This document shows positions 5,816-64,000 of a stretch of DNA of 64,000 nucleotides, one piece after another. The position numbers were made by a program, and so were the translations under genes. Position 1 is the stretch's first letter; every line of letters starts with the position of its first letter. The notes beneath the pieces are model-generated. The model did not search any database. It worked only from the letters and a program-made list of their open reading frames with translations, and had not been told where the DNA came from. Location of the stretch: NCBI RefSeq assembly GCF_902832885.1, contig NZ_CADFDK010000004.1, positions 281,655 to 345,654 on the forward strand, written 5' to 3'. Source of the stretch: Burkholderia seminalis DSM 23518. Lineage in GTDB: Bacteria; Pseudomonadota; Gammaproteobacteria; Burkholderiales; Burkholderiaceae.

Positions 5816-6757
5816 GTGATCAGGAGCAAGGTGTTGAACGCGATCGTCGGGCTGACGTTCGCCGTCGGCGTCACGGCCGGCGCGCAGGCGCAGGAAGCCT
5901 ATATCCCGCTGATCTCGAAAGGCTTCCAGCATCAGTTCTGGCAGGCCGTGAAGTCGGGCGCCGTGCAGGCCGCGAAGGACTACAAGGTGAAGGTGACGTT
6001 CGAGGGGCCGGAAACCGAGGCGATGGTCGACAAGCAGATCGACATGCTGTCGGCCGCGATCGCGAAGAAGCCGGCCGCGCTCGGCTTCGCGGCGCTCGAC
6101 AGCAAGGCCGCGCTGCCGCTGCTGAAGAAGGCGCAGGCCGAGAAGATCCCGGTGATCGCGTTCGACTCGGGCGTCGACAGCGACATCCCGGTGACGACCG
6201 CCGCGACCAACAACAAGGCGGCCGCCGCGCTCGCCGCCGACAAGCTCGCCGCGCTGATCGGCGACGAAGGCGAGGTGGCCGTGGTCGCGCACGACCAGAC
6301 GAGCCGTACCGGCATCGACCGCCGCGACGGTTTTCTCGAGCGGATGAAGGCGGCGCACCCGAAGGTGCAGGTCGTGACCGTGCAGTACGGCGAAGGCGAC
6401 CAGCTGAAGTCGACCGAGGTGACGAAGTCGATCCTGCAGGCGTATCCGAAGCTCAAGGGGCTGTTCGGCACCAACGAAGGATCGGCGATCGGCGTGGTCA
6501 ACGGCGTGCGCGAGATGAAGCGCAAGGTCGTGATCGTCGGCTACGATTCCGGCAAGCAGCAGAAGGACGCGATCCGCAGCGGGCTGATGGCCGGCGCGAT
6601 CACGCAGAACCCGATCGGGATCGGCTACAAGACCGTCGAGGCGGCCGTGAAGGCGATCAAGGGCGAGAAGCTGCCGAAGGTCATCGACACCGGTTTCTAC
6701 TGGTACGACAAGACCAATATCGACGATCCGAAGATCGCGGCGGTGTTGTACGACTGA
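5816..6757 (+). CDS. Periplasmic sugar-binding protein of the ABC transporter (RbsB family)
   Basis: A 313-residue type 1 periplasmic binding protein. A signal peptide of about 23 residues ends in AGAQAQ before EAYIPLISKGFQHQFW. The fold's landmarks follow: the ALGFAALDSKA hinge region, VIAFDSGVD, GRRDGF-like DRRDGFLERM and GTNEGSAIG. The start is GTG at 5816, supported by AAGGAGACG 4 bp upstream and by a signal peptide beginning right there (MIRSKVLNAIVGLTFAVG). It delivers sugar, by context L-fucose, to the permease. Confidence 0.92.
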   Translation: MIRSKVLNAIVGLTFAVGVTAGAQAQEAYIPLISKGFQHQFWQAVKSGAVQAAKDYKVKVTFEGPETEAMVDKQIDMLSAAIAKKPAALGFAALDSKAALPLLKKAQAEKIPVIAFDSGVDSDIPVTTAATNNKAAAALAADKLAALIGDEGEVAVVAHDQTSRTGIDRRDGFLERMKAAHPKVQVVTVQYGEGDQLKSTEVTKSILQAYPKLKGLFGTNEGSAIGVVNGVREMKRKVVIVGYDSGKQQKDAIRSGLMAGAITQNPIGIGYKTVEAAVKAIKGEKLPKVIDTGFYWYDKTNIDDPKIAAVLYD

Positions 6758-6824
6758 GCGTTGCGCGCGAGCGGCGGCGATGACGCGCGCCGCCGCGACA
6801 GCGGCGACTGAACACGAGGGCACC

Positions 6825-7715
6825 ATGGGCGCAGTGCGCATCGATTCCCATCAGCACTTCTGGCGTTATCGCGCGGCCGACTATCCGTGGATCGGCCCCG
6901 GGATGGGCGTGCTCGCACGCGACTACCTGCCCGACGTGCTGTGGCCGCAGATGCATGCGCAGGCGCTCGGCGCGTCGATCGCGGTGCAGGCGCGCGCCGG
7001 GCGCGACGAGACGGCGTTCCTGCTCGATCTCGCGCGCGACGACGCCCGCATCGCGGCGGTGGTCGGCTGGGAGGATCTCGGCGCGCCCGGGCTGGCCGAG
7101 CGGGTCGCCGCGTGGGGCAGCGCGAAGCTGCGCGGCTTTCGTCATCAGGTGCAGGACGAAGCCGACGTGGCCGCATTCGTCGCCGATCCCGGTTTCAATC
7201 GGGGCATCGCGTGGCTGCAGGCGAATGGTTACGTGTACGACGTGCTCGTGTTCGAGCGCCAGTTGCCGGACGTGCGCGCGTTCTGCGCGACGCACGATGC
7301 GCACTGGCTCGTGCTCGATCATGCCGGCAAGCCGGCGCTCACCGAGTTCGAGCGGGACGACACGGCGCTCGCACGCTGGCGCGCGTCGCTGCGCGAGCTG
7401 GGCGCGTTGCCGCACGTGGCATGCAAGCTGTCGGGGCTCGTGACCGAGGCGGACTGGCGGCGCGGCCTGCGCGCGCGGGACATCCGGCACATCGAGCAGT
7501 GCCTCGACGCGGCGCTCGACGCGTTCGGGCCGCAGCGGCTGATGTTCGGGTCGGACTGGCCCGTGTGCCTGCTGGCGGCCTCGTATGACGAAGTGGCGTC
7601 GCTCGTCGAACGCTGGGCCGAATCGCGGCTGTCGGCGGCCGAGCGCAACGCGCTGTGGGGCGGCACGGCCGCGCGTTGTTACGCGGTGCCGGGCGATGTG
7701 AGGCGCGGCATATAA
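6825..7715 (+). CDS. L-fuconolactonase (COG3618 amidohydrolase)
   Basis: A 296-residue amidohydrolase-superfamily TIM barrel. The metal-binding HxH motif is at the N-terminus (DSHQHFW), followed by FRHQVQDE, the LDHAGKPAL strand and the terminal Asp in FGSDWPVC. Members of this COG3618 branch in fucose operons hydrolyse L-fucono-lactone to L-fuconate. ATG 6825 is preferred to the in-frame ATG at 6780 because GAGGG lies just upstream and homologous proteins begin a few residues before DSHQHFW. It closes the pathway between fucose dehydrogenase and fuconate dehydratase. Confidence 0.9.
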   Translation: MGAVRIDSHQHFWRYRAADYPWIGPGMGVLARDYLPDVLWPQMHAQALGASIAVQARAGRDETAFLLDLARDDARIAAVVGWEDLGAPGLAERVAAWGSAKLRGFRHQVQDEADVAAFVADPGFNRGIAWLQANGYVYDVLVFERQLPDVRAFCATHDAHWLVLDHAGKPALTEFERDDTALARWRASLRELGALPHVACKLSGLVTEADWRRGLRARDIRHIEQCLDAALDAFGPQRLMFGSDWPVCLLAASYDEVASLVERWAESRLSAAERNALWGGTAARCYAVPGDVRRGI

Positions 7716-27206: not shown

Positions 27207-28325
27207 ATGACGCTGTCCCGTCTTACGTCCATTTCCGTTGCCGCCGTGCTGTTCGCCGCCGGCGCCGCCGCCGCGCAAGCGGAAACCGTGAAGATCGCCA
27301 TTGCTGGTCCGATGAGCGGCTCGGTCGCCCAGTATGGCGACATGGTGAAGGCCGGCGCGCTGACCGCGATCGAACAGATCAACGCGGCAGGCGGTGCGGG
27401 CGGCAACAAGTTCGAAGTGGTGATGATGGACGACGCGTGCGAACCGAAGCAGGCCGTCGCCGTCGCCAACAAGATCGTCAGCCAGAAGATCAAGTACGTG
27501 ATCGGCCACGTGTGCTCGGGTTCGACGATCCCGGCCTCGGACATCTACGAGAACGAAGGCATCGTGATGGTCACGCCGTCGGCGACCGCGCCGCAGCTGA
27601 CCGAAGGCAAGAAGCGCCACTTCATCTTCCGCACGATCGGCCGCGACGACCAGCAAGGGCCGGCCGCCGCGCACTACATCATCAACAACGTGAAGCCGAA
27701 GAAGGTCGCCGTCCTGCACGACAAGCAGTCGTACGGCCAGGGCATCGCGTCGTCGGTGAAGAAGGACCTCGAGGCCGCGAAGATCCCGGTCGTGCTGTTC
27801 GAAGGCATCAACGCCGGCGATTCGGACTACTCGGCGATCATCACGAAGCTGAAGTCGCAGGGCGTCGATTTCGTCTACTTCGGCGGCTACCACCCGGAAA
27901 TGGGCCTGCTGATGCGCCAGGCGCGCGAGCAGGGCGTGAAGGCCACGTTCATGGGGCCTGAAGGCGTGGGCAACAAGGACGTGACGGCGATCGCCGGCCC
28001 GGCCTCGGAAGGCATGCTCGTCACGCTGCCGGCCGACTTCTCGGCCGACCCGGCCAACGCGGCGCTCGTGAAGGCGTTCGCGGACAAGAAGCGCGACCCG
28101 AACGGTCCGTTCCAGATGCCGTCGTACGCAGCGGTGAAGATCATCGCCGACTCGATCGCGGGAGCGAAGACGACCGACCCGACGAAGGTCGCCGCGTACA
28201 TGCACAAGACGACGTTCGACACGCCGATCGGCAAGGTCGCGTACGACGCGCAGGGCGACCTGAAGGCGTTCAAGTTCGTCGTCTACACGTGGCACAAGGA
28301 CGCGACGAAGACCGCCGCCAAGTAA
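27207..28325 (+). CDS. livK: Branched-chain amino acid ABC transporter substrate-binding protein
   Basis: A 372-residue periplasmic binding protein of the Leu/Ile/Val family. The signal peptide (MTLSRLTSISVAAVLFAAG) ends at AAAQA. The mature protein starts ETVKIAIAGPMSGSVAQYG and contains GHVCSGSTIPASDIY and VMVTPSATAPQL in the ligand pocket, then FYFGG-like FVYFGGYHPEMG and GPEGVGNKD. It captures branched-chain amino acids for the LivHMGF complex encoded downstream. The long leader and strong promoter fit the high expression expected of a binding protein. Confidence 0.93.
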   Translation: MTLSRLTSISVAAVLFAAGAAAAQAETVKIAIAGPMSGSVAQYGDMVKAGALTAIEQINAAGGAGGNKFEVVMMDDACEPKQAVAVANKIVSQKIKYVIGHVCSGSTIPASDIYENEGIVMVTPSATAPQLTEGKKRHFIFRTIGRDDQQGPAAAHYIINNVKPKKVAVLHDKQSYGQGIASSVKKDLEAAKIPVVLFEGINAGDSDYSAIITKLKSQGVDFVYFGGYHPEMGLLMRQAREQGVKATFMGPEGVGNKDVTAIAGPASEGMLVTLPADFSADPANAALVKAFADKKRDPNGPFQMPSYAAVKIIADSIAGAKTTDPTKVAAYMHKTTFDTPIGKVAYDAQGDLKAFKFVVYTWHKDATKTAAK

Positions 28326-28342
28326 TACGGCGTACCCGCCCG

Positions 28343-28381
28343 CGCGCCCGCCCTGTCCGAGACCCGGACGGGGCGGGCGCG
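28343..28381 (+). terminator. Strong stem-loop between livK and livH (attenuator or stability hairpin)
   Basis: Two 17-base arms pair with a single G-U mismatch position around a 5-base loop AGACC (28360-28364). No T run follows, so read-through into livH is expected. It would lower expression of the membrane and ATPase genes relative to livK or protect the livK message 3' end. Confidence 0.6.
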
Positions 28382-28508
28382 TATTGGCCGCGCATCGGCC
28401 CATCGCGCGGCCAACGGGCGGCCCGAGACGACACCGTGCGTTGCGCGCGGCCGAACGCCGTGATCCGGCGGCGGCAGGCGACCCAGCGCCAACGGGAGCT
28501 TCCCGCAC

Positions 28509-29435
<927 letters not shown>

Positions 29436-29446
29436 GGGAGACGCAG

Positions 29447-30718
29447 ATGAGTCAAGTCATTTCCGTTCGCCGCCCGGCCGCCGACGCTTCGCTCGGCCAG
29501 GCGCTGAAAAATGCCGTGGCCGCCGCGTTGCTGACGGCGATCCTCACGATCCCGGTGCTCGGCCTGCAGCTGAAGCTCGACGGCTACCAGGTCGTGCTGA
29601 CGCCGCATTGGCGGCCGGTGTGGATCGCGGTCGCGGCCGTGTTCCTGTTCCAGTTGTTCAAGCCGTGGCTCGTGCGCGCGAAAGCGGCCGTGAAACTGCC
29701 GGCGGCGCCCGCGATGGGCGCGCGGCAGCAGCGCGCGATCATCTGGGTGCTGCTCGCGGTCGGGCTCGTGTGGCCGTTCTTCGGTTCGCGCGGTGCGGTG
29801 GACGTCGCGACGCTCGCGCTGATCTACGTGATCCTCGGCCTCGGGCTGAACATCGTGGTCGGTTTCGCGGGCCTGCTCGATCTCGGCTATGTCGGGTTCT
29901 ACGCGGTCGGCGGTTATACGTACGCGATGCTGAACCAGTATTTCGGGCTGTCGTTCTGGGCGTGCCTGCCGATCGCGGCGATCGCCGCGGCGACGTTCGG
30001 CTTCCTGCTCGGCTTCCCGGTGCTGCGCCTGCGCGGCGACTATCTCGCGATCGTCACGCTCGGCTTCGGCGAAATCATCCGCCTGCTCGCGAACAACCTG
30101 ACGAGCCTCACCGGCGGCCCGGACGGCATCTCGGGCATTCCGAAGCCGACGGTGTTCGGCTTCGAGATGGCGCGCTCGGCGAGCGTCGAAGGCGCGAAGA
30201 CCTTCCATGAACTGATCGGGCTGGAATACAGCGGCGAGCACATGGTGATCTTCCTGTACCTGATCGCGCTGGTGCTGGTCGGCTTCACGCTGTTCGTGAC
30301 GAGCCGCCTGATCCGCATGCCGATGGGCCGCGCGTGGGAAGCGCTGCGCGACGACGAGATCGCGTGCCGTTCGCTCGGCCTGAACCCGACGCGCATCAAG
30401 TTGTCGGCATTCACGCTCGGCGCGGCGTTCGCGGGGATCGGCGGCGCGTTCTTCGCGGCGCGCCAGGGCCTCGTGAATCCGGAATCGTTCACCTTCATCG
30501 AATCGGCGCTGATCCTCGCGATCGTCGTGCTCGGCGGGATGGGGTCGCAGCTCGGCGTGATTCTCGCGGCGATCCTGCTGACCGTGCTGCCGGAAGTCGC
30601 GCGCGGGTTCGCCGAGTACCGGATGCTGATCTTCGGTCTCGTGATGGTGTTGATGATGATGTGGCGTCCGCAGGGCCTGCTGCCCGCGAGCCGTCCCCAC
30701 GTGGAGCTGCCGCGATGA
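29447..30718 (+). CDS. livM: Branched-chain amino acid ABC transporter permease LivM
   Basis: A 423-residue permease. Compared with the basic family it has an N-terminal extension of about 100 residues with two or three extra hydrophobic segments, as in other LivM proteins. Core motifs are [34 protein letters not shown], the coupling loop [23 protein letters not shown] and [14 protein letters not shown]. The start has GAGGGAGACG upstream. Its stop overlaps the livG start by ATGA. Confidence 0.94.
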
Positions 30719-31487
30719 GCGTGAATACGGAACTGTTGAAGGTCGCCGGGCTGCAGATGCGCTTCGGCGGGTTGCTCGCGGTGGACGGCATCGATTTCGA
30801 CGTGCGCCGCGACGAGGTGTTCGCGATCATCGGGCCGAACGGCGCGGGCAAGACCACGGTGTTCAACTGCGTCGGCGGCTTCTACAGGCCGACCGGCGGC
30901 GCGGTCGAACTCGACGGCCACCCGATCGCCGGGCTGCCGAGCCACAAGATCGCGCTGAAGGGCCTCGTGCGGACGTTCCAGAACATTCGGCTATTCAAGT
31001 CGCTGACCGTCGTCGAGAACCTGCTCGTCGCGCAGCATCGCAAGGTGAAGGCGGGGTTGCTGCACGGGCTGTTCGCGACGCCCGCGTATCGTCACGCGGA
31101 GAAGGAGGCGCTCGAGCGCGCGGCCGTGTGGCTCGACCGGATGGGGCTGACGTCGGTCGCCAACCGCCCGGCCGGCACGCTGTCGTACGGGCACCAGCGG
31201 CGTCTGGAGATCGCGCGCTGCATGATCACCGATCCGCGGCTTTTGATGCTCGACGAGCCGGCAGCCGGCCTCAACCCGCAGGAAAAGATCGAGCTGCAGC
31301 ACCTGATCGACACGCTGCGCCGTGAATTCGGCGTATCGGTGCTGCTGATCGAACACGACATGAGCCTCGTGATGGGCGTGTCCGACCGCATCCTCGTGAT
31401 GGAGCACGGCCGGCCGATCGTGATCGGCACGCCGGAAGCGGTCCGCAACGACCCGCGCGTGATCAAGGCGTATCTGGGGGAAGAGTG

Positions 31488-31488
<1 letters not shown>
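30715..31488 (+). CDS. livG: Branched-chain amino acid ABC transporter ATP-binding protein LivG
   Basis: A 257-residue ABC ATPase. Walker [13 protein letters not shown], signature [13 protein letters not shown] and Walker [14 protein letters not shown] are all intact, and the C-terminal BCA_ABC_TP_C extension ([29 protein letters not shown]) is typical of LivG. It energises LivHM together with LivF. It is translationally coupled at both ends by overlapping stop/start codons. Confidence 0.95.
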
Positions 31489-32189
<701 letters not shown>

Positions 32190-32278: not shown

Positions 32279-33130
32279 CTACCCGATCCTGAACGTGCTT
32301 TTCAGCACGTCGCGCAGATGCAGCGCGGCGCGATTGCTGTCGTCCGTCAGGATCGTGATCAGATGCGGCGGCAGATCGGGCAGCACGATCCCGGCGACAT
32401 GGCTCGTCAGGTTGCCCGACACGCGATCGTGCTCGATCAGCCCGACCGCGAGGCCGTTCGCGATGCAGGCTTCGACCGCGGGCGAGCTGGCGCTCTCGAG
32501 CAGCATCCGGTGCGCGATCTTCGCCTTCTTCAGCGCGTTCAGCGCGGTGTCGCGATACGGGCAGCCCTGCAGCTGCACCGCGATCGGCAGCGGCGCATCG
32601 GGATTGAACTTGAACGTGCGCGCGGCGACCCACACCGGATGGGTCTTGCTGAGCAGCTCGGCGTGCGGCGGCGCTTTCGACACGACGGCGATCGTGATGT
32701 CGAGCTGGCCGCGCGCGAACAGCTGCTGCAATTCTTCGCTGGAGCGCGCCTCGACGGTCAGTTCGAGCAGCGGCCGGTCGGCGGCGAAGCGCGGCAGGAA
32801 TTCCGCCATGAAGTGCGCCGCGTACGAATCCGGGATACCGAGCCGCAGCTTGCCGGTCAACATCTGCGGCGACAGCGATTCGACGAGCCGGTCGTGGCTC
32901 AGCAGGAACTCGGTGGTGTCGCTCAGCAGCTTGTGGCCGAACTGCGTGAGTTCGACGGCCTGGTTGTTGCGCGTGAACAGGCGCTGCGCGACCATTTCCT
33001 CCAGCTTCTGAATCTGCGCGGTGACCGACGACGGGCTGCGGTTCACGTGAGCGGCCGCATCCTTGAAGCGGCCGAGCTTCGCGACGGCGTGGAAGGTTCG
33101 CAGCAGGTCGACGTCCAGGGTGCGCGGCAT
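32279..33130 (-). CDS. LysR-family transcriptional regulator
   Basis: A 283-residue LTTR. An N-terminal HTH (DLLRTFHAVAKLGRFKDAAAHVNRSPSSVTAQIQKLEE) is followed by a periplasmic-binding-type effector domain (KLRLGIPDSYAAHFMAEFLPRFA, LDITIAVVSK, GLAVGLIEHDRV). It is divergent from the methyltransferase/oxygenase/exporter operon that starts at 33264. The 133-bp gap holds a GAATC-AGT-GATTC inverted repeat (33145-33157) close to its own start, consistent with autoregulation and control of that operon. The effector is unknown. Confidence 0.9.
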   Translation of the reverse strand: MPRTLDVDLLRTFHAVAKLGRFKDAAAHVNRSPSSVTAQIQKLEEMVAQRLFTRNNQAVELTQFGHKLLSDTTEFLLSHDRLVESLSPQMLTGKLRLGIPDSYAAHFMAEFLPRFAADRPLLELTVEARSSEELQQLFARGQLDITIAVVSKAPPHAELLSKTHPVWVAARTFKFNPDAPLPIAVQLQGCPYRDTALNALKKAKIAHRMLLESASSPAVEACIANGLAVGLIEHDRVSGNLTSHVAGIVLPDLPPHLITILTDDSNRAALHLRDVLKSTFRIG

Positions 33131-33144
33131 GATTTGGTTTTTCC

Positions 33145-33157
33145 GAATCAGTGATTC
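33145..33157. promoter_or_regulatory. Putative LysR operator (GAATC-N3-GATTC)
   Basis: A perfect 5+3+5 inverted repeat 15 bp upstream of the LysR start codon in the divergent promoter region, of a size typical for an LTTR recognition site. Confidence 0.45.
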
Positions 33158-33263: not shown

Positions 33264-34244
33264 ATGTCGATCAATGATTTTGTCGTAGATGCATTGGTGC
33301 GGGACAGGAAGCTGAAGGCGGAGTCGGTATGGACGGTCGAGAATCACGAAAAGTATTCGACGCTGAAGCGCACGGACGATGACGCGCGGCGCAGGGCAGC
33401 GGGGCGCGAAGTCTTCTCGCTGATGCGAAACCTGAACGAGCTGGGCGTGCGGAGCCCGGCGCTGTGTGCGGATCGCGACGGCAACGGTTCGTTGCGCGAA
33501 GCGATCGGCGCGTTGAGCGAGCGGCTGGCCACGTTGTCGCGCGGCCGCGATGTCCACTACATCGAGCTCGGGCCCGAGCCGGTCAAGACGACCGAGCTGA
33601 TGAGGGCCGTCAGCGGCGGCGGGCCGGACCATCTGCGCTACACGGCCGTCGACATCAACGAGTCGTCGGAAGACACGATGCGGCACGCGATCATGCCGTT
33701 CCTGAAAACGCCCGGCTGTTTCAACTACATCGCCGACGATTACCGGAACGTGCAGTGGAACCACATCCACTTGGGCCAGGACGTGACGTTCATCACGATG
33801 CTCGGGTTCCAGGAGGGCAACGAGTTGCCGGTGACGATCGGCCGGCTGATCCGCACGCTCGGCGGGAAGTCGACCTACGTCGTATCGGAGATGCAGTTGC
33901 TCGTGGAGGGGCGCGAAGAGCCGATCTACAACTTCTACCGCAACGAGAACATGGTGCGGTTCTCCGAAATCGTCAGCCGGCAGCAGGGCTTCGAGCCGCT
34001 CGGCGAGCATCATGTGTCGATCGTGCGGCTCAATCTGCTCGGCGACCAGTTTCACGTCGCGGTCACGCTGCAACCGGTGTCGAGGGCGGGCGCCGACGGG
34101 CACCTGATCACCAACGTCTGCCTGAAGTACACGCCGGAGCAATTCCGCAACGTGCGCCTGAGCCACGGCAATTGCCGCGTGATCGAGGAGCTGCGCAGCG
34201 GGGGCGGCAGCGTTGTCTACCAGATCGCGCAGTTCAAGGGCTGA
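33264..34244 (+). CDS. EgtD-like SAM-dependent amino-acid N-methyltransferase (Methyltransf_33 type), substrate unknown
   Basis: A 326-residue protein whose layout matches EgtD, the histidine Nalpha-trimethyltransferase of ergothioneine synthesis. The SAM motif YIELGPEPVKT is at 99-109, the acidic strand end AVDIN at 128-132, ITMLGFQEGN at 177-186 in the place of EgtD's LGGTIGN, FYRNENMVRF near 224-233 and NVCLKYTPEQF at 284-294. By my alignment from memory, the last motif replaces the histidine-reading Glu and Ser of EgtD with Asn and Cys, so another amino acid is likely. ATG 33264 is favoured by GGGGAA upstream. It heads an operon with an oxygenase and an exporter. Confidence 0.72.
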   Translation: MSINDFVVDALVRDRKLKAESVWTVENHEKYSTLKRTDDDARRRAAGREVFSLMRNLNELGVRSPALCADRDGNGSLREAIGALSERLATLSRGRDVHYIELGPEPVKTTELMRAVSGGGPDHLRYTAVDINESSEDTMRHAIMPFLKTPGCFNYIADDYRNVQWNHIHLGQDVTFITMLGFQEGNELPVTIGRLIRTLGGKSTYVVSEMQLLVEGREEPIYNFYRNENMVRFSEIVSRQQGFEPLGEHHVSIVRLNLLGDQFHVAVTLQPVSRAGADGHLITNVCLKYTPEQFRNVRLSHGNCRVIEELRSGGGSVVYQIAQFKG

Positions 34245-34273
34245 ATGCCGGAATGCCGACAGCGAGGCACGCG

Positions 34274-35263
34274 ATGAACAAGGGAAATGCATTGCCGGTG
34301 TTTGCGCGCGGGTTCGACCGGGTGAGGCTCGCGTTGCGGACGTCGCTGTCGGCCGGCGTGAACGTCGACGGCACGCTGGACGCAGCGACGGAACCGATGC
34401 GCTGGACGAGCGCATGCCTGCGCGACGGTTACGAGGTGCGATACCGCCGCAACCTCGACGATCTCGGCTATCGCGAGGTGCCGATGCGCGGCACGCGTTC
34501 CGATTCGCTGAACGCGGTGTGCCATCTGCGCGGGCTGTTCTCCGACGAGGCGGTGAGCGCGTTGCGCGAGATCGGCCGCGCGCTGGAGCGCAGCGCGTCG
34601 AGCAGCGACTGGATCATCTCGAAGCGCGTGCGCGCGGTGACGAACCGGTCGCGCTTCATCGACGACATGATGCACGACCGCGCGTTCCTGATGCGGGTGT
34701 CGCGTCTTGCCGGCGCCCCGCTGATTCCGTATCCGATGGTCAATGCGCGGTCGCAGTTCAATTACTACTATCCGACGGACTCGCGCGAAGGCGGCAACGC
34801 GCCGCTCGGCATGTGGCATACCGACGGCACGAGTTTCGTGCTGAACGTCGTGCTGTCGGATCGCGCCGATTACGAGGGCGGCAACTTTCTGTTCTACGAA
34901 TCGACCGCGGAAACGTTCGATCGTCACGACAAGGAACGCCGGCATGTGAAGACCGCGAACCTGGACCGCGCGGGCGACGCGCTGCTCATCTACGGCAGCA
35001 AGCTGTTCCATGGCGTCGAGCCGGTCGAGGCCGGACGCCGCATGTCGCTGGTGCTGTCGTTTCATTGCCCGTACACGCGCGAGGACGACAACGGGTTCTG
35101 GCATCTCGCGTCGGACGACGGCATTCCCCGCACGATCGTCAACTGGCTGGCGCTGCAGCGCGCCCTCCGGGACGACGCCGAATTGCAGTACCGCCGCCTG
35201 GGGCTCGAACCGATTCGCCCCGAAGACCTGGACGACCAGCGCCTGTCTCCGGCCCCCTTCTGA
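34274..35263 (+). CDS. 2-Oxoglutarate/Fe(II)-dependent oxygenase (2OG-FeII_Oxy type)
   Basis: A 329-residue protein with a double-stranded beta-helix core. The metal triad fits His182 and Asp184 in MWHTDGTS and His246 in KLFHGVEPV; Arg256 ten residues later is the expected 2-oxoglutarate anchor. The strand EGGNFLFYE between them is also typical of the prolyl-hydroxylase-like family. The N-terminal 85 residues match no domain I know. It follows the methyltransferase by 29 bp and precedes an exporter by 13 bp. Inferred role: hydroxylation, desaturation or rearrangement of the methylated product. Confidence 0.82.
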   Translation: MNKGNALPVFARGFDRVRLALRTSLSAGVNVDGTLDAATEPMRWTSACLRDGYEVRYRRNLDDLGYREVPMRGTRSDSLNAVCHLRGLFSDEAVSALREIGRALERSASSSDWIISKRVRAVTNRSRFIDDMMHDRAFLMRVSRLAGAPLIPYPMVNARSQFNYYYPTDSREGGNAPLGMWHTDGTSFVLNVVLSDRADYEGGNFLFYESTAETFDRHDKERRHVKTANLDRAGDALLIYGSKLFHGVEPVEAGRRMSLVLSFHCPYTREDDNGFWHLASDDGIPRTIVNWLALQRALRDDAELQYRRLGLEPIRPEDLDDQRLSPAPF

Positions 35264-35276
35264 GAGCCGTCGCCCC

Positions 35277-36200
35277 ATGCAGCTATTCCTGCTTCAGCTC
35301 GTTTTCGTGTTGTCGTGGAGTTCCGGTTTCATCGGCGCGAAGCTCGGCGCGGAGACGGCCGGTGCGTTCAACCTGCTGTTCTGGCGGTTCCTGCTCGTCA
35401 CGCTGTGCCTGGCGGTCGTCCTCAACCGGCGGCTGGGGCGCCTGACGCTCGAAAAAATCCGCTATCACGCGGTGATCGGCTTCCTGTCGCAGTTTCTTTA
35501 CCTGACCTGCGTGTACATCGCGATTCAGCATGGGCTGCCGCCGGGCATCGCCGCGATCGTCGCGGCGTTGCAGCCGCTCATCACGGCCGCGATGACGTCG
35601 CTCGAGGGCAGCGAGCGCAGCGGGGCGCGCCAGTGGGCCGGGCTCGTCGTCGGGTTCGTCGGCGTGGGCATCGTGATCGGCGGGCAATATGCGTTGCCGG
35701 CCGGGTCGGTCGGGATCGTCATGTACCTGTTGCCGCTGGTGTCCGCGCTGGGGCTGTCGATCGCGACGATCTATCAGCGGCGGCGCGCGCTGACGGCCGC
35801 GCGCAGCAACGAGGACGGGCTGTTCCTGCCGCTGTTCGTGCAAGGGTGCGTGAGCCTCGTGCTGTTCGCCGCGTGCGGGATCGTCACGGGCAATCTGCAT
35901 GTGCCGACACAGCCGAACGTATGGGTGTCGGTCGTGTGGCTGACGGTGTTCTCGACCTTCATCGCGTACCTGTCGCTGTGGGCGCTGCTCAAGCGCATGC
36001 CTGCGACGCGCGTGGCGACCCTCGTCTATCTCGAGCCGCCGGTGACGCTGTTGTGGGCCGCATGGATGTTCGGCGACCGGATCGAGGTGACGACCTATCT
36101 CGGCATCGTCGTCGTCGCGATCGGTGTGTGGCTGGCGGGCAGGCGCGTCGAGCGGCCCCCGCGGGCGCGGCGGGCGGAGATGAAGGCGGCCGGGCGCTGA
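35277..36200 (+). CDS. EamA-family (DMT) transporter, probable exporter
   Basis: A 307-residue drug/metabolite transporter with ten predicted membrane segments in two EamA repeats. Repeat 1 has WSSGFIGAKLGAETAGAFNLLFWRFLLV and ends in the GIAAIVAALQPLITAAMTSLEG loop; repeat 2 ends LLKRMPATRVATLVYLEPPVTLLWAAWMFGD. Such proteins export amino acids and related metabolites (as in RhtA or YdcZ-like systems). It is 13 bp after the oxygenase stop and the natural candidate to export that enzyme's product. Confidence 0.88.
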   Translation: MQLFLLQLVFVLSWSSGFIGAKLGAETAGAFNLLFWRFLLVTLCLAVVLNRRLGRLTLEKIRYHAVIGFLSQFLYLTCVYIAIQHGLPPGIAAIVAALQPLITAAMTSLEGSERSGARQWAGLVVGFVGVGIVIGGQYALPAGSVGIVMYLLPLVSALGLSIATIYQRRRALTAARSNEDGLFLPLFVQGCVSLVLFAACGIVTGNLHVPTQPNVWVSVVWLTVFSTFIAYLSLWALLKRMPATRVATLVYLEPPVTLLWAAWMFGDRIEVTTYLGIVVVAIGVWLAGRRVERPPRARRAEMKAAGR

Positions 36201-36265: not shown

Positions 36266-36616
36266 ATGAAAGTCAAACGGATCGTCGCCAACATCGACAC
36301 ACGGTCGGTCGACGACGCAACGCGTTTCTACCGGCAGATCTTCGGTCTCGACCTGCTGATGGATCACGGCTGGATCGCGACCTACGGCAATGCCGAGCAG
36401 ATGGACGTACAGATCAGCTTCGCGTCGCAGGGCGGATCGGGCACGCCGACCCCCGATCTGTCGATCGAGGTCGACGACGTCGACGAAGCGCTCGAACGGG
36501 TTCGCGCGGCCGGCATTCCCGTCGAATACGGGCCGGCCGACGAGCCGTGGGGCGTGCGGCGCTTTTACGTGCGCGATCCGTTCGGCAAGCTCGTCAACGT
36601 GCTCGCGCATCGCTGA
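36266..36616 (+). CDS. VOC (glyoxalase/bleomycin-resistance) superfamily protein
   Basis: A 116-residue single VOC domain with the two beta-alpha-beta-beta-beta repeats: VDDATRFYRQIFGLDLLMDHGW in the first, LSIEVDDVDEALERVRAAGI and WGVRRFYVRDPFGKLVNVLAH in the second. VOC proteins range from lyases and dioxygenases to drug-binding proteins, so no reaction can be assigned. It starts 65 bp after the EamA gene with its own GAAGGAA ribosome site and may or may not belong to that operon. Confidence 0.85.
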   Translation: MKVKRIVANIDTRSVDDATRFYRQIFGLDLLMDHGWIATYGNAEQMDVQISFASQGGSGTPTPDLSIEVDDVDEALERVRAAGIPVEYGPADEPWGVRRFYVRDPFGKLVNVLAHR

Positions 36617-58400: not shown

Positions 58401-59780
58401 GCGGCGTTCGTGCCGGCCGATTGCGTGGCCGATGCGGCGCCGTCGCCGCTCGCGGATGCGGGCACGGCCGATACGGTTCAGGCGGAAGCGGCCGTTGCAC
58501 GCGTCGTCGCCGATCGGCTGATCGACGGCGGCGCGAGCCTGCCGCCGTCGCTGCATGCGCGCCGGCACGCGACAGGCGATGCGTCGATCTCGATCGACGC
58601 CGCGCTCGATCGGCTCGGCTGGCATGCAACCGACCTGGACGACCTGACGGCGGCGCTGCGCGCGCTCGCAGCCGATCCCGATACCGTCGCGCAGCGCGTG
58701 GCGCTCGATCCGCGCGTCGCGCCGCTTGCATTCGCGACGCGCTTGCCGGACGGCGCTCGTGTGCTGCGCGAGTTTGCTGGCGCGCTCGATGCACAGGCTG
58801 CTGCATGCACGGACGCGATGCGGGTCGCGGTGCTCGATGCCCGCGCCGGGCAATGGTTCGACGCGGGCCTCGACGTGCTCGACGATCCGCGTTTCGACGT
58901 GACGCTGTTCGACGTGTCGCCGGGTCTGCTGCACACCGCGCAGGCACGCTTCACGCGAACGAGGCCCGCGCTTCAGGCGCTGCAGGACGCCCTGCTGCCC
59001 GCGCGTCATCTCGGCGCATTCGACTGCGTGATCAGTTTCGCCGCGGCACACCTGCGCGACGATCCGCGCGATACGTTCAGGATCGCGGCCGCGTTGCTGG
59101 CGCGGGATGGCCGTTTGCTGTTCGCCGACGTGCTGCGCGACTCGCCGTTGCGCGAACTCGTCGCGAGCGTGACGGGCGATGCCTCGTTGCCGCGGCCGTT
59201 CACGACCGAGGCGATCGCCGCTGCCGCGCAGGCGAGCGGCTTCACGCCCGACTCCCGAAGCTGGTATTCGACCGCGTTTGCATGCCTCGACGCGCGTCGT
59301 GTCGGCGAATCGGCGACGCAAGCGGTGCTGGCAGACTGGCTGCGCGACCGGCTGCCGGACGCGATGCGCCCTGACGCACTGTGGTGCCTGCCGCGCTGGC
59401 CGCTCAACGCGAACGGCAAGATCGACCGGCGCGCGGTGGGCGACGCGCTTGCGCGCGCGCTCGGCGACGCGCCGGCCGCGCATGACGCGTTCGTGCCGGC
59501 AAACGAACGGCATGCGACGCTGCTCGCGTGCTGGGAGCAGGCGCTCGGCTGCCGGGCGAACGCCCGCGACGCCACGTTCTTCGCGCTCGGCGGCGACAGT
59601 CTGCTGGCGACGCGCCTGCTCGCGCAATTGCGCGAACGGCTCGGCGCGCGGATCGGGATGGCCGCGTTCTACCGCGATCCGACGCTCGCCGGTCTTGCCG
59701 CCCAGCTCGACGATGTGGCGCCGGCGGTCACGGCGGACGGCAGCGCATCGGTCGCGACGATCGAGGAGGGCGTGCTGTGA
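55412..59780 (+). pseudogene. pchE: Pyochelin synthetase PchE (dihydroaeruginoate synthetase), frameshifted as written
   Basis: A corrected product of about 1456 residues has an aryl carrier domain (Ser58 in LLSCGLDSIR), a cyclisation domain (DxxxxDxxS as DLLAADVDS), a cysteine adenylation domain (YTSGSTGVPKG near nt 57532), an embedded methyltransferase-like epimerase domain (about 58800-59300) and a peptidyl carrier domain (FFALGGDSLLATRLL). It makes hydroxyphenyl-thiazoline from salicylate and cysteine. The frame changes at 55925-55932: HPMLRA then LRRRSSAD, whereas restoring two bases of a CG-repeat gives HPMLRARFAGGRQQI. The rest (55929-59780) is open. As written the protein ends early. 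ATG 55412 has AAGG upstream. Confidence 0.9.
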
Positions 59781-62700
59781 GCTTCGACGACGTACTCGAT
59801 CTCTGCCGCGAACGGCAGATCGAATTGTGGTGCGACGACGGCGGTCAGCTGCGCTATCGCGCACCGGCCGGCGCGCTCGACGCGGACCTGGCCGCGCGCA
59901 TCAAGGCCGAACGCGACGCGTTCGTCCGCTTCCTGCGGGGCGGCGCGTGGCGCGGCGATCCGGCGCGCCAGCATGAACGGTTTGCGCTGACGCCGGTACA
60001 GGCCGCGTACGTGCTCGGCCGGCACGAGTCGTTCGAGTTCGGCGGCAGCGCATGCCATCTGTACGTCGAATACGACGAGCGGCAGGATCTCGACTGCGTG
60101 CGCTTCGAGGCCACGTGGAATGCGTGCGTGGCGCGGCATCCGATGCTGCGCGCGATCGTCGAGGACAACGCATGGCAGCGCGTGCTGCCCGACGTGCCGT
60201 GGCAGCGGCTCACGGTGCACGACCTGCGCGACGGCGATGCGCACGCATTCGACGCGCACGTGCAGCGGGTACGCGAGCGGCTCGACCACGCGGTCCATGC
60301 GCTCGACCGCTGGCCCGTGCTGCAGCCCGAAGTGAGCCTCGGGCCGGATGGCGCGCTGCTGCACCTGTCCGTCGATTTCACGCTGATCGACTACGCGAGC
60401 CTGCAACTGCTGCTTGCCGAATGGCGGCGCCGTTACGACGATCCGCAATGGCAGCCGGCGCCGCTCGACGCGACGTTTCGCGACTATGTGGCTCACGAGG
60501 CGCAGGCCGGCACGGGCGCCGATCATGCGCGCGACAAGGCCTGGTGGCTCGCGCGCATCGACGATCTGCCGGCGCGCCCCGATCTGCCGGTCGTGCCCGC
60601 GATGCGCACCGACGCCCGTCCGCGTTTCACGCATCGCCATGCGCGGCTCGACCGCGCGCAATGGGTCGCGCTGAGCGGCCATGCAAGCCGTTTCGGGCTG
60701 AGTGCGGCGAGCGTCGCGCTGGCCGCGTTCGCGGAAGTCGTCGGCCGCTGGAGCCAGTCGCCGGCGTTCTGCCTGAACCTGACGGTGCTGAACCGTCCGC
60801 CGGTGCATCCGCGCATCGACGCGGTGCTCGGCGATTTCACCGCGTTGAGCATGCTCGCCGTCGACGTGACGCAAGGGGGCGATTTCATCGCGCGCGCGCG
60901 TACGATCGGTGCGCGGATGTTCGACGATCTCGACCATCGCGCATTCACCGGCGTCGACGTGATGCGCGAACTCGCGCGGCGGCGCGGCAAGGAGGCGGCG
61001 CTGATGCCGGTCGTGTTCACGAGCGGCATCGGCAGCGTCGGCCGCTTGCTCGGCGAGCAGGCGGGCCGGGCGGAACCGCCGCGCTACATGATCAGCCAGA
61101 CGCCGCAGGTGTGGCTCGACTGCCAGGTGACCGACCAGTTCGGCGGGCTGGAGATCGGCTGGGACGTGCGGGACGATCTGTTTCCCGAAGGCTTGCCGAC
61201 CGCGATGTTCGACGCGTACGTCGCGCTGCTGGGCCGGCTTGCCGACGATGCCGGATGGTGGTCGCGTGCGGGCGACATCGTGCTGCCGTGCGCCGCGCCC
61301 GTTGCCGACGTGCATCCGGACGCGGAGACGCATATCGCGGCCGGGTTTGCCGCGCAGGCGCTGCGCACGCCCGATGCGCCGGTCGTGATCGACGCGCAGG
61401 GCGCCCGCACGTACCGCGATGTCGCGCAACATGCGGCGGCGCTGCGTACCGCGCTCGAACAGGCCGGCGTCGGCGTGGGCGACACGGTGGCGGTGCTGAT
61501 GCCGAAGTGCGCGCACCAGCTCGCGGCCGTGCTCGCGATCGTCCAGGCGGGCGCCGCATACGTGCCGGTCGACAGCCGCCAGCCGGCGTTGCGCCGGCAG
61601 GCGATCCTGCGCAATGCGCGGGTGCGCGCGGTCGTGAGCGTACGGGCGCTGGACTTCGAGCATGAAGGATGCGTGCGCATCGATGCCGATGCGTTGCCCG
61701 CCGATCTGCAATGGCCGCCGCGCGCCGCGTGCGACGTCGACGGCGCGGCGCTGGCCTACGTGATCTACACGTCGGGCTCCACCGGCGAACCGAAGGGCGT
61801 GATGCTGAGCCACGCGGCGGTGTGCAACACGCTCGCCGACATCAACGCACGCCATGCGGTCGGTGCGGGCGATGTGGTACTCGGCCTGGCCGAACTGAGC
61901 TTCGACTTGTCCGTCTACGACTTCTTCGGCGCGACCGCGCGCGGTGCGTGCGTCGTGCTGCCCGACCCCGCGCGCGGTCACGATCCGTCGCACTGGGCAG
62001 AGTTGATGGCACGTCATGCGGTGACGGTGTGGAACTCGGTGCCCGCACAAGGGCAGATGCTGATCGATTACCTCGAGGGCGAACCGGCGCTCGACGTGCC
62101 GGGCCCGCGCCGCGTGCTGTGGTCGGGCGACTGGATTCCGGTGACGCTGCCGGCCCGCTGGTGGAAACGCTGGCCCGACAGCGCGCTGTTCAGTCTCGGC
62201 GGCGCGACCGAAGCGTCGATCTGGTCGATCGAGCATCCGATCCGCCCGGAGGACACGCAGCTCGCCAGCATTCCGTACGGCCGCGCGCTGACCGGGCAGA
62301 CGATGGAAGTGCTCGACGTGCTTGGCCGGCCGTGCCCGCCCGGCGTGCGCGGCGAGATCCATATCGGCGGCGTCGGGCTCGCGACGGGCTATGCGAACGA
62401 TCCCGCGCGAACGGCCGAACGTTTCATCCGTCATCGCGACGGGCGCCGGCTCTATCGCACCGGCGATCTCGGCCGCGTGCGCGCCGACGGTTCGCTCGAA
62501 TTCCTCGGCCGGCAGGACGATCAGGTGAAGATCCGCGGTTACCGGATCGAGCTGGCCGAGATCGATGCGGCGCTGACCGCGCATCCGCTGGTCGGCGCGG
62601 CCGCGACGATCGTGCTCGGCGAGGGCGCCGAGCGCCGGCTGGCGAGCTTCGTGTCGCTGCAGGGTGCGGCGCCGGACCCGTCGGCGCACGACCCCGCCCT

Positions 62701-64000
62701 TCACGAGATCGCGGCACCGGTCCGCGCTGCGTTCGACGCCGTGCGCTGGCCCGCGCAAGCGGACGTGGCGCGATCGGTCGAGCAGCTCGAAACGGCATGC
62801 GTGGCGTCGCTGGCTGCGTGGATCGTACCGGCAGGCGGCTTGACGGCCGACGACGCAACCGGTTTCGCGACGCTGTGCGAGCGGCTGCGCGTGCCGCCGG
62901 CGCGGCAGCATCTGCTGCGCCACTGGCTCGCGATGCTCGTGACGCACGGCGTGCTGCACGCGGATGCCGAAGGCGGCTGGCGTAGACGGTCCGACGCCAG
63001 CCATGCCGACGCGCACGCATGCTGGGATGCGTTCGCGCTGCATGCATCGCCCGAGCTGTGGCCGCCGGTCCTCATCGACTACTTCCGCGACAGCGCGGGC
63101 TGCCTGGACGTACAGGTGGATGGCACGGTTTCGCCGGCCGGCCTGATGTTCCCCGAAGGCGCGTCGCATATCGCCGAAGCGATGTACAGCAACGGCGAAC
63201 ACGCGCATGCGCTGCATCGCGGGATGGCGCAAGCCGTGCGCGAGATCGTCGCGCGCGAGCCGCGGCGTACGTGGCGCATCCTCGAGATCGGCGCGGGAAC
63301 GGCCGCCGCGACGCGCGCGATCGTGGATGCGCTCGCGCCGCTGGTCGAAGCGGGCACGCGGATCGACTACCTGTTCAGCGACGTGTCGAGCTACTTTCTC
63401 GCGGCCGCGCGCGAGCGCTTCGCCGCGTATCCGTGGATGCGGTTCGTGCGTTTCGACATGAATGCAGCGCTCGACGCGCAGGGCATCGCGCCGCATTCGA
63501 TCGACATGACGATCAGCTCCGGCGCGCTGAACAACGCGCGCGACACGGTTGCACTGATCGCCGGATTGCGCGCGCTGTCGGCGGCCGATGCATGGTGGGT
63601 GATCCAGGAACTGACGGCCGAGCATCCGGAGATCAGCATCAGCCAGGGGCTGATGATGGAGACGCCGCGCGATGCGCGGGCCGGGTCGTGCCGGCTGTTC
63701 GTACCGCGCGCGCAGTGGCTCGAATGGCTGCAGGGGGACGACGGCGATCGCGCACTCGGCTGCGTGACGGCCGGCTCGCCGCTCGACGCGCTGGGCTACG
63801 ACATCCTGCTCGCGCACGTGAAGCGCGGCGCGGCCCGCATCGCGCCGGATGCGCTGCTGTCGTTCGTTGCCGAGCGCGTGCCGGGCTACATGGTGCCGTC
63901 GCAACTGCGCGTGCTCGAGCGACTGCCCGTGACCGCGAACGGCAAGATCGACCGCCGGACGCTGGCCGGCATTGCCGACATTCGCGAGCCGGAACCGGCG
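59777..64000 (+). CDS. pchF: Pyochelin synthetase PchF, partial (runs off the window)
   Basis: The frame is open from GTG 59777, which overlaps the pchE stop by GTGA, to the window end (1408 codons). In order: a cyclisation domain (FALTPVQAAYVLGRHESF, then DxxxxDxxS as DFTLIDYAS near nt 60375), a cysteine adenylation domain (YTSGSTGEPKG near 61765, FSLGGATEASIW, YRTGDLGRVR, VKIRGYRIEL), and a methyltransferase inserted in it (ILEIGAGTAAATRAI near 63280) that N-methylates the second thiazoline-derived ring. The end of the A domain (MVPSQLRVLERLPVTANGKIDRR) is reached. The carrier and thioesterase domains should follow outside the window. Confidence 0.93.
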   Translation, partial: MSFDDVLDLCRERQIELWCDDGGQLRYRAPAGALDADLAARIKAERDAFVRFLRGGAWRGDPARQHERFALTPVQAAYVLGRHESFEFGGSACHLYVEYDERQDLDCVRFEATWNACVARHPMLRAIVEDNAWQRVLPDVPWQRLTVHDLRDGDAHAFDAHVQRVRERLDHAVHALDRWPVLQPEVSLGPDGALLHLSVDFTLIDYASLQLLLAEWRRRYDDPQWQPAPLDATFRDYVAHEAQAGTGADHARDKAWWLARIDDLPARPDLPVVPAMRTDARPRFTHRHARLDRAQWVALSGHASRFGLSAASVALAAFAEVVGRWSQSPAFCLNLTVLNRPPVHPRIDAVLGDFTALSMLAVDVTQGGDFIARARTIGARMFDDLDHRAFTGVDVMRELARRRGKEAALMPVVFTSGIGSVGRLLGEQAGRAEPPRYMISQTPQVWLDCQVTDQFGGLEIGWDVRDDLFPEGLPTAMFDAYVALLGRLADDAGWWSRAGDIVLPCAAPVADVHPDAETHIAAGFAAQALRTPDAPVVIDAQGARTYRDVAQHAAALRTALEQAGVGVGDTVAVLMPKCAHQLAAVLAIVQAGAAYVPVDSRQPALRRQAILRNARVRAVVSVRALDFEHEGCVRIDADALPADLQWPPRAACDVDGAALAYVIYTSGSTGEPKGVMLSHAAVCNTLADINARHAVGAGDVVLGLAELSFDLSVYDFFGATARGACVVLPDPARGHDPSHWAELMARHAVTVWNSVPAQGQMLIDYLEGEPALDVPGPRRVLWSGDWIPVTLPARWWKRWPDSALFSLGGATEASIWSIEHPIRPEDTQLASIPYGRALTGQTMEVLDVLGRPCPPGVRGEIHIGGVGLATGYANDPARTAERFIRHRDGRRLYRTGDLGRVRADGSLEFLGRQDDQVKIRGYRIELAEIDAALTAHPLVGAAATIVLGEGAERRLASFVSLQGAAPDPSAHDPALHEIAAPVRAAFDAVRWPAQADVARSVEQLETACVASLAAWIVPAGGLTADDATGFATLCERLRVPPARQHLLRHWLAMLVTHGVLHADAEGGWRRRSDASHADAHACWDAFALHASPELWPPVLIDYFRDSAGCLDVQVDGTVSPAGLMFPEGASHIAEAMYSNGEHAHALHRGMAQAVREIVAREPRRTWRILEIGAGTAAATRAIVDALAPLVEAGTRIDYLFSDVSSYFLAAARERFAAYPWMRFVRFDMNAALDAQGIAPHSIDMTISSGALNNARDTVALIAGLRALSAADAWWVIQELTAEHPEISISQGLMMETPRDARAGSCRLFVPRAQWLEWLQGDDGDRALGCVTAGSPLDALGYDILLAHVKRGAARIAPDALLSFVAERVPGYMVPSQLRVLERLPVTANGKIDRRTLAGIADIREPEPA

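Follow-up and report, generated by a model that had tools for sequence, protein, structure and literature searches.

The window, that is, the whole 64,000-nucleotide stretch of Burkholderia seminalis DNA that was analysed, contains three consecutive plus-strand genes and a divergent gene for a LysR-type regulator with PF00126 and PF03466 domains (Table 1). The ORF coordinates agree with the initial annotation, which had described the trio with spacings of 29 bp (genes 1 and 2) and 13 bp (genes 2 and 3). The divergent regulator and the GAATC-N3-GATTC repeat that it had reported were also recovered, the repeat as a single copy in the whole window. A livKHMGF-like importer operon, named by reading, adjoins the cassette.

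Table 1. Features of the cassette and its surroundings; positions are those of the window.
Feature	Position	Strand	Length	Description
Gene 1 (P0001)	33264-34244	+	326 aa	ORF; orphan protein, putative divergent class I methyltransferase
Gene 2 (P0006)	34274-35263	+	329 aa	Fe(II)/2-oxoglutarate oxygenase, H182-x-D184...H246...R256
Gene 3 (P0003)	35277-36200	+	307 aa	EamA/DMT exporter, PF00892
LysR-type regulator, divergent	32279-33130	-		PF00126, PF03466
GAATCAGTGATTC palindrome, candidate LysR operator	33145-33157	n/a		GAATC-N3-GATTC
Glyoxalase-fold protein, downstream	36266-36616	+		PF00903; cassette membership uncertain

Gene 2 carries the signature of Fe(II)/2-oxoglutarate oxygenases, a superfamily characterized by an HxD...H metal triad and an arginine for 2-oxoglutarate. 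The active site previously read from this protein proved invariant in all nine rows of an oxygenase-family alignment, a separate and more diverse set than the nine aligned gene 2 members (eight from Burkholderia) that gave weak matches to several 2-oxoglutarate oxygenase models. Against PF10014, the IDO/BsmA family, the protein scored 22.7 bits (E 8.9e-5), missing the gathering score of 23.1 by 0.4 bits, and PDB searches with it returned no matches or chance matches. The gene is under purifying selection (dN/dS 0.173). In our reading, gene 2 encodes a 2-oxoglutarate oxygenase whose family lies close to the hydroxylases of free amino acids.

Gene 3 matched PF00892 in two stretches with 94.1 bits (cut-off 28.2, E 1.1e-26), which places it among the EamA exporters. 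Its 15 overlapping hydrophobic stretches merge by eye into about ten, in line with the ten segments first described. Among NCBIfam models, those for amino acid/amine or drug/metabolite exporters scored best, though none reached its cut-off. RhtA, encoded in the Bacillus isoleucine dioxygenase (IDO) operon, is also of the EamA type.

Gene 1 is an orphan which, as far as sequence searches tell, was detected in Burkholderia alone among the sampled genomes. Its protein had no Pfam match at E ≤ 0.1 and no credible NCBIfam or PDB sequence match, and ten orthologues searched against Pfam at E ≤ 10 matched a regulator model alone, PF10017 not being among the matches. The order sample yielded no relative outside the genus (1 of 200 genomes matched, its own), the family sample gave seven matches in 249 genomes, all in Burkholderia, and the phylum sample two in 398, with no accepted relative outside the genus. 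A marginal match in the latter (L066, E 0.007) was rejected, as its position falls in an ORF read as UbiB-like. Viral scans found no relative, and tblastn returned two chance-level matches in phages (E 4) and three Burkholderia records among plasmids. The gene is nevertheless under purifying selection (median dN/dS 0.088). Whereas the usual class I SAM loop carries GxG, that of gene 1 reads ELGPEP, with the second glycine missing. The low confidence of the structure models of both enzymes (mean pLDDT 34.6 for gene 1, pLDDT 35.4 for gene 2) is probably due to orthologues that are too alike. Gene 1 probably encodes a very divergent, putative class I methyltransferase.

The initial annotation had called gene 1 EgtD-like, which we could not confirm in view of the missing Pfam match and the marginal profile statistics. 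The likeness to EgtD (PF10017) consists of a small set of collinear motif residues, located in the SAM domain and towards the C-terminal end (ELG, K108, D130, GxxxGN at 181-186, Y222 and K288), and MAFFT aligned GREVFSLMRNLNE with GSDLFDQITRLPE in the P0001/EgtD comparison, a partial likeness. In contrast to EgtD, gene 1 has neither a significant profile match nor an adjoining EgtB. The EgtD N-terminal words KxFYD and EYYPTRTE are absent from P0001 in the alignment, and TNVC stands in place of the C-terminal TExS; all three motifs were taken as conserved from the EgtD alignment itself. With hmmsearch --max, P0001 reached E 2.4 against the EgtD profile, a score exceeded by one shuffle out of 2000 and by a single unrelated ORF of the window. 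With hhalign it ranked fifth of 423; one of 300 shuffles scored higher, and the sequences scoring the same or better also included an unrelated ORF of the window and a class I methyltransferase from Streptomyces. In a second hhalign comparison P0001 took first place among 201 for the EgtD profile, and places 164, 122 and 100 for three further methyltransferase profiles. It matched 32 of the 102 conserved EgtD columns, where the best of 66 window ORFs matched 31 and shuffled sequences 25.2 on average (s.d. 3.6), nine of 300 exceeding P0001. The resemblance to EgtD thus appears collinear but near chance.

A search of the whole genome with PF10017 did not return P0001 but another gene, a strong EgtD on another contig, beside which lies an FGE-sulfatase/DinB_2 protein, a layout that we take to be EgtB-type. 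Because the genome contains this separate EgtD, gene 1 is not the sole candidate and is hardly the EgtD of this organism. The proposal that gene 1 is an EgtD-type trimethyltransferase giving rise to a new amino-acid betaine, which is then oxidized and secreted, is therefore improbable in our view: the collinear residues, the first rank among 201 and the count of conserved columns fit it, but the hmmsearch E value, the shuffles and the unrelated ORF scoring as high or higher, and the missing or altered motifs argue against it.

Within the genus, the trio is conserved as a unit, a point on which the initial annotation had made its reading depend. The order LysR-MT-OX-EamA was found in 15 of 15 full-length gene 1 loci, giving a complete set in one gene order in 15 of 65 genus genomes. 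The palindrome GAATCAGTGATTC is identical in 13 of these loci and one base off in the other two, and the median dN/dS of LysR is 0.047 (15 genomes). Orthologues of LysR and EamA are found in one and the same set of 24 genomes out of 65. The nine of these that do not have the complete set retain LysR and EamA, but their two enzyme genes are deleted or broken; since nine of 24 species keep both without gene 1, neither exporter nor regulator is bound to it. Eight of the nine loss loci still contain traces of gene 1, gene 2 or both, the breaks falling at several distinct junctions, and G034 has a clean junction with no enzyme remnants. The sequence GAAT[CT]AGTGATTC occurs in seven of the nine, being absent from G034 and G041, and the glyoxalase-fold gene follows EamA in eight, the contig stopping within EamA in the ninth.

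EamA is still constrained after the loss of the enzymes. A full-length match was found in seven of the nine loss genomes (one a residue short), the gene being frame-shifted near its end in G008 and interrupted by a contig end in G057, and in the 22 of 24 genomes left after exclusion of these two its median dN/dS was 0.177 in the loss genomes versus 0.139 in those keeping the enzymes. The LysR+EamA tree, which is poorly resolved, includes some flanking DNA in its rows and rests on 2325 of 5848 columns, requires seven changes between keeping and losing the enzymes in its best form, five to seven in bootstraps, and four that are forced by well-supported branches; the two states are unclustered on it (shuffled mean 7.5).

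These patterns bear on two other explanations. LysR and the exporter could be the more ancient element, an efflux unit in its own right that handles a general metabolite; genes 1 and 2 would then have been inserted between them and would now be in the course of loss as non-essential passengers. The wider distribution of LysR and EamA (24 of 65 genomes) than of the intact enzymes (15) is consistent with this, as is the clean junction of G034, the chosen root row of the tree. We consider it rather unlikely, however, as genes 1 and 2 are both under purifying selection (dN/dS 0.088 and 0.173) and oxygenase-exporter neighbourhoods are also met in other lineages, where the exporters differ. In the second explanation, which we find quite improbable, the product would serve as a public good (a shared signal, an osmolyte or a siderophore-like compound) from which the nine non-producing species profit. 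Patchy loss fits such dynamics, but non-producers should then retain an importer, whereas the retained gene is an EamA exporter; the adjoining livKHMGF-like importer operon might have a link to the cassette.

Relatives of the oxygenase have comparable surroundings in other bacteria. A divergent LysR gene followed by the oxygenase and EamA was found in nine of nine strong loci from another proteobacterial class (an assignment that rests on kinship at the level of the same phylum, Alphaproteobacteria being a guess). Two weaker oxygenase matches were set aside from this count, one whose context was read as unrelated (G531, E 5e-6, 76 positions) and one with no exporter match within 7.5 kb (L171 in G656, E 6e-25). 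The four queries used found no methyltransferase in the nine loci, which indicates that methylation is not needed for the oxygenase-exporter pair. The EamA partners of the oxygenase relatives are 24-28% identical to that of the window over 124-214 aa (none was detected for L150), and the LysR partners 24-30% over 109-125 aa. This weak likeness suggests that the oxygenase-exporter neighbourhoods were independently assembled.

Plasmid cassettes of Rhizobium lusitanum (L154) and Roseibium aggregatum (L155) resemble the Burkholderia cassette in that a methyltransferase, or a gene resembling one, is combined with a member of this oxygenase family and with EamA, LysR being nearby; the Rhizobium LysR gene is annotated as two overlapping pieces. 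They differ in that the methyltransferase is not detectably homologous to P0001 and that an additional arylmalonate-decarboxylase/EutA-like gene is present. Three Streptomyces cassettes (L020 and L021 on plasmids, and L065, where the methyltransferase was matched in its C-terminal part only) likewise combine a methyltransferase, oxygenases 35-40% identical to P0006 and an amino-acid-type exporter, but have tandem oxygenases, a LysE exporter on the opposite strand, an HAD phosphatase and a different methyltransferase. The recurrence of such a gene directly 5' of a member of this oxygenase family, together with an exporter of the amino-acid type in the vicinity, supports a scheme of modification, oxidation and export. 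The sequence of methylation, oxidation and secretion originally proposed is supported in this general form; amino-acid trimethylation by gene 1 and a betaine product are not supported.

Gene 1 may still be something other than a methyltransferase, namely an orphan partner subunit, another transferase or a degenerate enzyme, in which case the cassette would hydroxylate and export an amino acid. We regard this as a serious possibility, though short of an even chance. The lack of a credible family or PDB match, the missing SAM-loop glycine, the weak EgtD tests and the nine loci devoid of a methyltransferase to the queries used are in its favour. It is opposed by the first rank of P0001 against the EgtD profile, not seen against three other methyltransferase profiles, by the annotated or scored class I methyltransferase immediately 5' of the (first) oxygenase in Rhizobium and Streptomyces, and by the Roseibium gene in this position, which is 39% identical to its Rhizobium counterpart.

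A precedent is provided by Bacillus. The IDO operon of Bacillus thuringiensis encodes a hydroxylase, a reductase and the RhtA exporter; its product is reported to be a conditional antibiotic, and for the IDO and Hil operons an antimicrobial product and export as self-detoxification have been proposed (PMC3684760). These operons share with the cassette a 2-oxoglutarate oxygenase of or near PF10014 and, in the Hil operons, a LysR gene, whereas a methyltransferase, of which the cassette has a putative one, is not mentioned in that paper (PMC3684760). Unlike in the IDO/Hil system, the oxygenase of the cassette lies just below the PF10014 cut-off, and no AMKP-reductase-type dehydrogenase was found between or directly after the trio genes, the next gene being of the glyoxalase fold.

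We propose, with about even confidence, that the locus is a LysR-controlled cassette that makes and exports one small amino-acid-like molecule. Gene 1, the probable methyltransferase, and gene 2 would each alter this molecule and gene 3 would pump it out, with LysR, probably sensing the product or a precursor, driving expression of the operon through the divergent promoter. Even without the enzymes, the exporter and regulator would be useful, most simply by ridding the cell of the product or a similar compound, which could come from the cell itself or from its neighbours; having value alone, they would be kept by non-producing species. By analogy with the Bacillus isoleucine dioxygenase/RhtA operon, the exporter thus possibly also protects the cell. 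Several points weigh against the cassette proposal: gene 1 has no demonstrable methyltransferase homology and an unusual SAM loop, the nine LysR-oxygenase-EamA loci show no methyltransferase to the queries used, the oxygenase scores just below the PF10014 cut-off, its two weaker matches (G531 and G656) lie outside such neighbourhoods, the loss and keep states are unclustered on a poorly resolved tree, two of the nine loss genomes gave no full-length EamA match, and retention of the exporter could mean separate housekeeping export. An extended form, which we consider unlikely, is that gene 1 represents a new, distantly EgtD-like family of amino-acid methyltransferases confined to Burkholderia, which with the oxygenase would yield a previously unseen methylated and hydroxylated amino-acid antimetabolite; the LysR-controlled exporter would then confer immunity in the loss species, and oxygenase-exporter pairs would have been assembled several times in proteobacteria and Streptomyces.

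Our literature survey, conducted at listing level, found no such family of small amino-acid-modifying cassettes. The orphan gene 1 family bears on the question of EgtD-type chemistry in a setting other than ergothioneine metabolism. If correct, the proposal would add a family of small amino-acid-modifying cassettes, and an exporter that outlasts the loss of production would mark self-protection, which would hint at bioactivity of the product.

The host genome of the window (7.97 Mb in 55 contigs) carries three consecutive plus-strand genes separated by gaps of 29 bp (genes 1 and 2) and 13 bp (genes 2 and 3), together with a divergent LysR gene, as described in the initial annotation. The GAATC-N3-GATTC repeat that it reported upstream was found as the palindrome GAATCAGTGATTC at 33145, the only copy of this pattern within the window, and was exact in 13 of the 15 trio loci of the genus, with one base changed in the other two. 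A glyoxalase-fold gene lies downstream of the trio. The livKHMGF-like operon lies directly upstream of the LysR gene, and its last gene is also found there in all nine genus loci in which the enzyme genes are missing or broken; in one of these, G034, this is a partial copy, with a full copy further away. Elsewhere, a very long plus-strand ORF (~59486-64000) runs off the window end; it is the top window ORF against a profile of the histidine N-alpha-methyltransferase EgtD (16.4 bits, E 0.0005), with a sub-threshold PF10017 match near 63230.

Features of the cassette, its neighbourhood and compared loci
Feature	Position	Strand	Remark
livKHMGF-like branched-chain amino acid ABC transporter operon	27207-32189	+	named from reading translations
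LysR gene	32279-33130	opposite to trio	divergent
Gene 1	33264-34244	+	
Gene 2, predicted 2-oxoglutarate oxygenase	34274-35263	+	
Gene 3, EamA exporter	35277-36200	+	
Replacement sequence in genome G049	L046 1846-3469		AraC-like ORF by reading; replaces the greater part of gene 1 and the beginning of gene 2
Arylmalonate decarboxylase/EutA-like genes	L154 (Rhizobium lusitanum) 6748-7500; L155 (Roseibium aggregatum) 6766-7515		directly after oxygenase; below EutA cut-off

Orthologues of LysR and EamA occurred in the same 24 of 65 genus genomes. The trio proved to be conserved as a unit within the genus: the whole set was present in 15 of the 24, always in the order LysR, gene 1, gene 2, EamA, while in the remaining nine the enzyme genes were missing or disrupted. 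Eight of these nine still held remnants of one or both enzyme genes (only ~11 and ~29 bp at alignment edges in G008); in the ninth, G034, the junction was clean and lay at the stop codon of gene 2. The breakpoints of the eight remnant-bearing genomes formed six sets, one of them common to G001, G043 and G057; the right-hand breakpoint of that set also occurs in G049, where the gap holds ~1.6 kb of other sequence. The best LysR+EamA tree required seven state changes (5-7 in bootstraps, four forced by well-supported branches, 7.5 with shuffled labels), and this tree, which is poorly resolved and includes some flanking DNA, does not distinguish gain from loss. Although the tree is silent on this point, the gene remnants show that the enzymes were lost in eight genomes. 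EamA remained full-length in seven of the nine loss genomes (one a residue short); in G008 it carries a frameshift close to its end, and in G057 it is truncated by the contig end. The palindrome was retained in seven of the nine loci. Median dN/dS was 0.088 for gene 1, 0.173 for gene 2 and 0.047 for LysR (15 genomes each), and 0.147 for EamA (22 of 24 genomes; 0.177 among loss pairs, 0.139 among genomes keeping the set). The exporter and its regulator thus seem valuable on their own.

Gene 2 is a predicted 2-oxoglutarate oxygenase. The active site proposed earlier, H182-x-D184...H246...R256, is borne out: an alignment of nine family members, taken from Streptomyces as well as from Burkholderia and other proteobacteria, shows all four residues to be invariant. 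The protein scored 22.7 bits against PF10014, below the cut-off of 23.1; members of PF10014 include enzymes that hydroxylate free isoleucine, leucine or threonine (PMC3684760).

Gene 1 gave no match to Pfam (E ≤ 0.1) or NCBIfam, and chance-level matches only to PDB sequences. Ten orthologues searched against Pfam at E ≤ 10 matched a regulator model alone (E 0.06-0.1), which we took as chance. Among sampled genomes, gene 1 was found only in the genus Burkholderia: full-length in 15 of 65 genus genomes with fragments in three more, in one of 200 in the order sample (its own genome), in seven of the 249 family genomes sampled (every one inside the genus), and in its own genome plus one dropped match among 398 of the phylum. 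The best named match among plasmid-collection records was from Burkholderia arboris (96.9%), and the remaining named carriers were likewise Burkholderia, mostly species of the Burkholderia cepacia complex.

The description of gene 1 as laid out like EgtD was not confirmed. By eye, it shows ELG...K...D130-I-N...GxxxGN...Y222...K288 in EgtD order. In a set of 201 sequences compared by hhalign it ranked first against EgtD, and with three further methyltransferase profiles it came 164th, 122nd and 100th. Of the 102 conserved columns of EgtD it matched 32; shuffled sequences averaged 25.2 (s.d. 3.6), with 9 of 300 higher, and no other ORF among the 66 of the window exceeded 31. In another hhalign set it ranked fifth of 423, equalled or outscored by one of 300 shuffles, its own longer reading frame, an unrelated window ORF and a class I methyltransferase of Streptomyces. 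In an hmmsearch with a 41-sequence EgtD profile it had an E-value of 2.4 and was outscored by one shuffle in 2000 and by a single unrelated ORF of the window. The EgtD words KxFYD and EYYPTRTE are absent from gene 1 in the EgtD alignment, which nevertheless pairs GREVFSLMRNLNE with GSDLFDQITRLPE. The likeness is no more than suggestive. Another contig of the same genome encodes a separate, strong EgtD adjoined by an FGE-sulfatase/DinB_2 protein, the layout of EgtB; gene 1 is therefore unlikely to be the ergothioneine enzyme of this genome.

Relatives of the oxygenase are rare, occurring in nine of 398 phylum genomes (E ≤ 0.001, own genome counted) and in nine of 297 in the order of genome G333 (E ≤ 1e-10), six of these identical to those of the phylum sample; a species-genome scan with two short peptide patterns as sole queries added one named organism, Streptomyces rugosispiralis. 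The neighbourhoods described here are those of loci that surfaced in searches and do not form a census. Nine strong loci belong to another class of the same phylum, probably Alphaproteobacteria (G279, six of genus g206, G769 and G687). All nine have a divergent LysR gene, ~0.8 kb from the oxygenase in G687, and a downstream EamA gene, and no methyltransferase was detected at them with four queries. In the Rhizobium lusitanum and Roseibium aggregatum plasmids, a methyltransferase-like gene is followed directly by the oxygenase and then by an arylmalonate-decarboxylase/EutA-like gene, and both EamA and LysR genes lie at most a few kb away; the Rhizobium LysR is annotated as two overlapping pieces, and the Roseibium methyltransferase-like gene, annotated as hypothetical, is 39% identical to its Rhizobium counterpart. 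Two nearby small proteins (L154 3190-3855, L155 7540-8175), alike by eye and lacking Pfam matches, may belong to this variant. Three Streptomyces loci combine a methyltransferase (matched in its C-terminal part only in L065), two oxygenases of the gene 2 family and, on the opposite strand, a LysE exporter. Partner EamA proteins share 24-28% identity with that of the window over 124-214 aa (no match for the L150 exporter), and partner LysR proteins 24-30% over 109-125 aa. Given how little these partner proteins resemble the exporter and regulator of the window, this oxygenase family seems to have been paired with export more than once.

The simplest account of the data is a putative cassette that modifies and exports an amino-acid-like molecule. 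Among characterised systems, the isoleucine dioxygenase operon of B. thuringiensis comes closest. The product of that operon, AMKP, is described as a conditional antibiotic, and its RhtA exporter was proposed to be sufficient for self-detoxification (PMC3684760). In the light of the self-detoxification proposed for RhtA, retention of the exporter in non-producers is intelligible as protection, although the exporter may instead have a separate export role.
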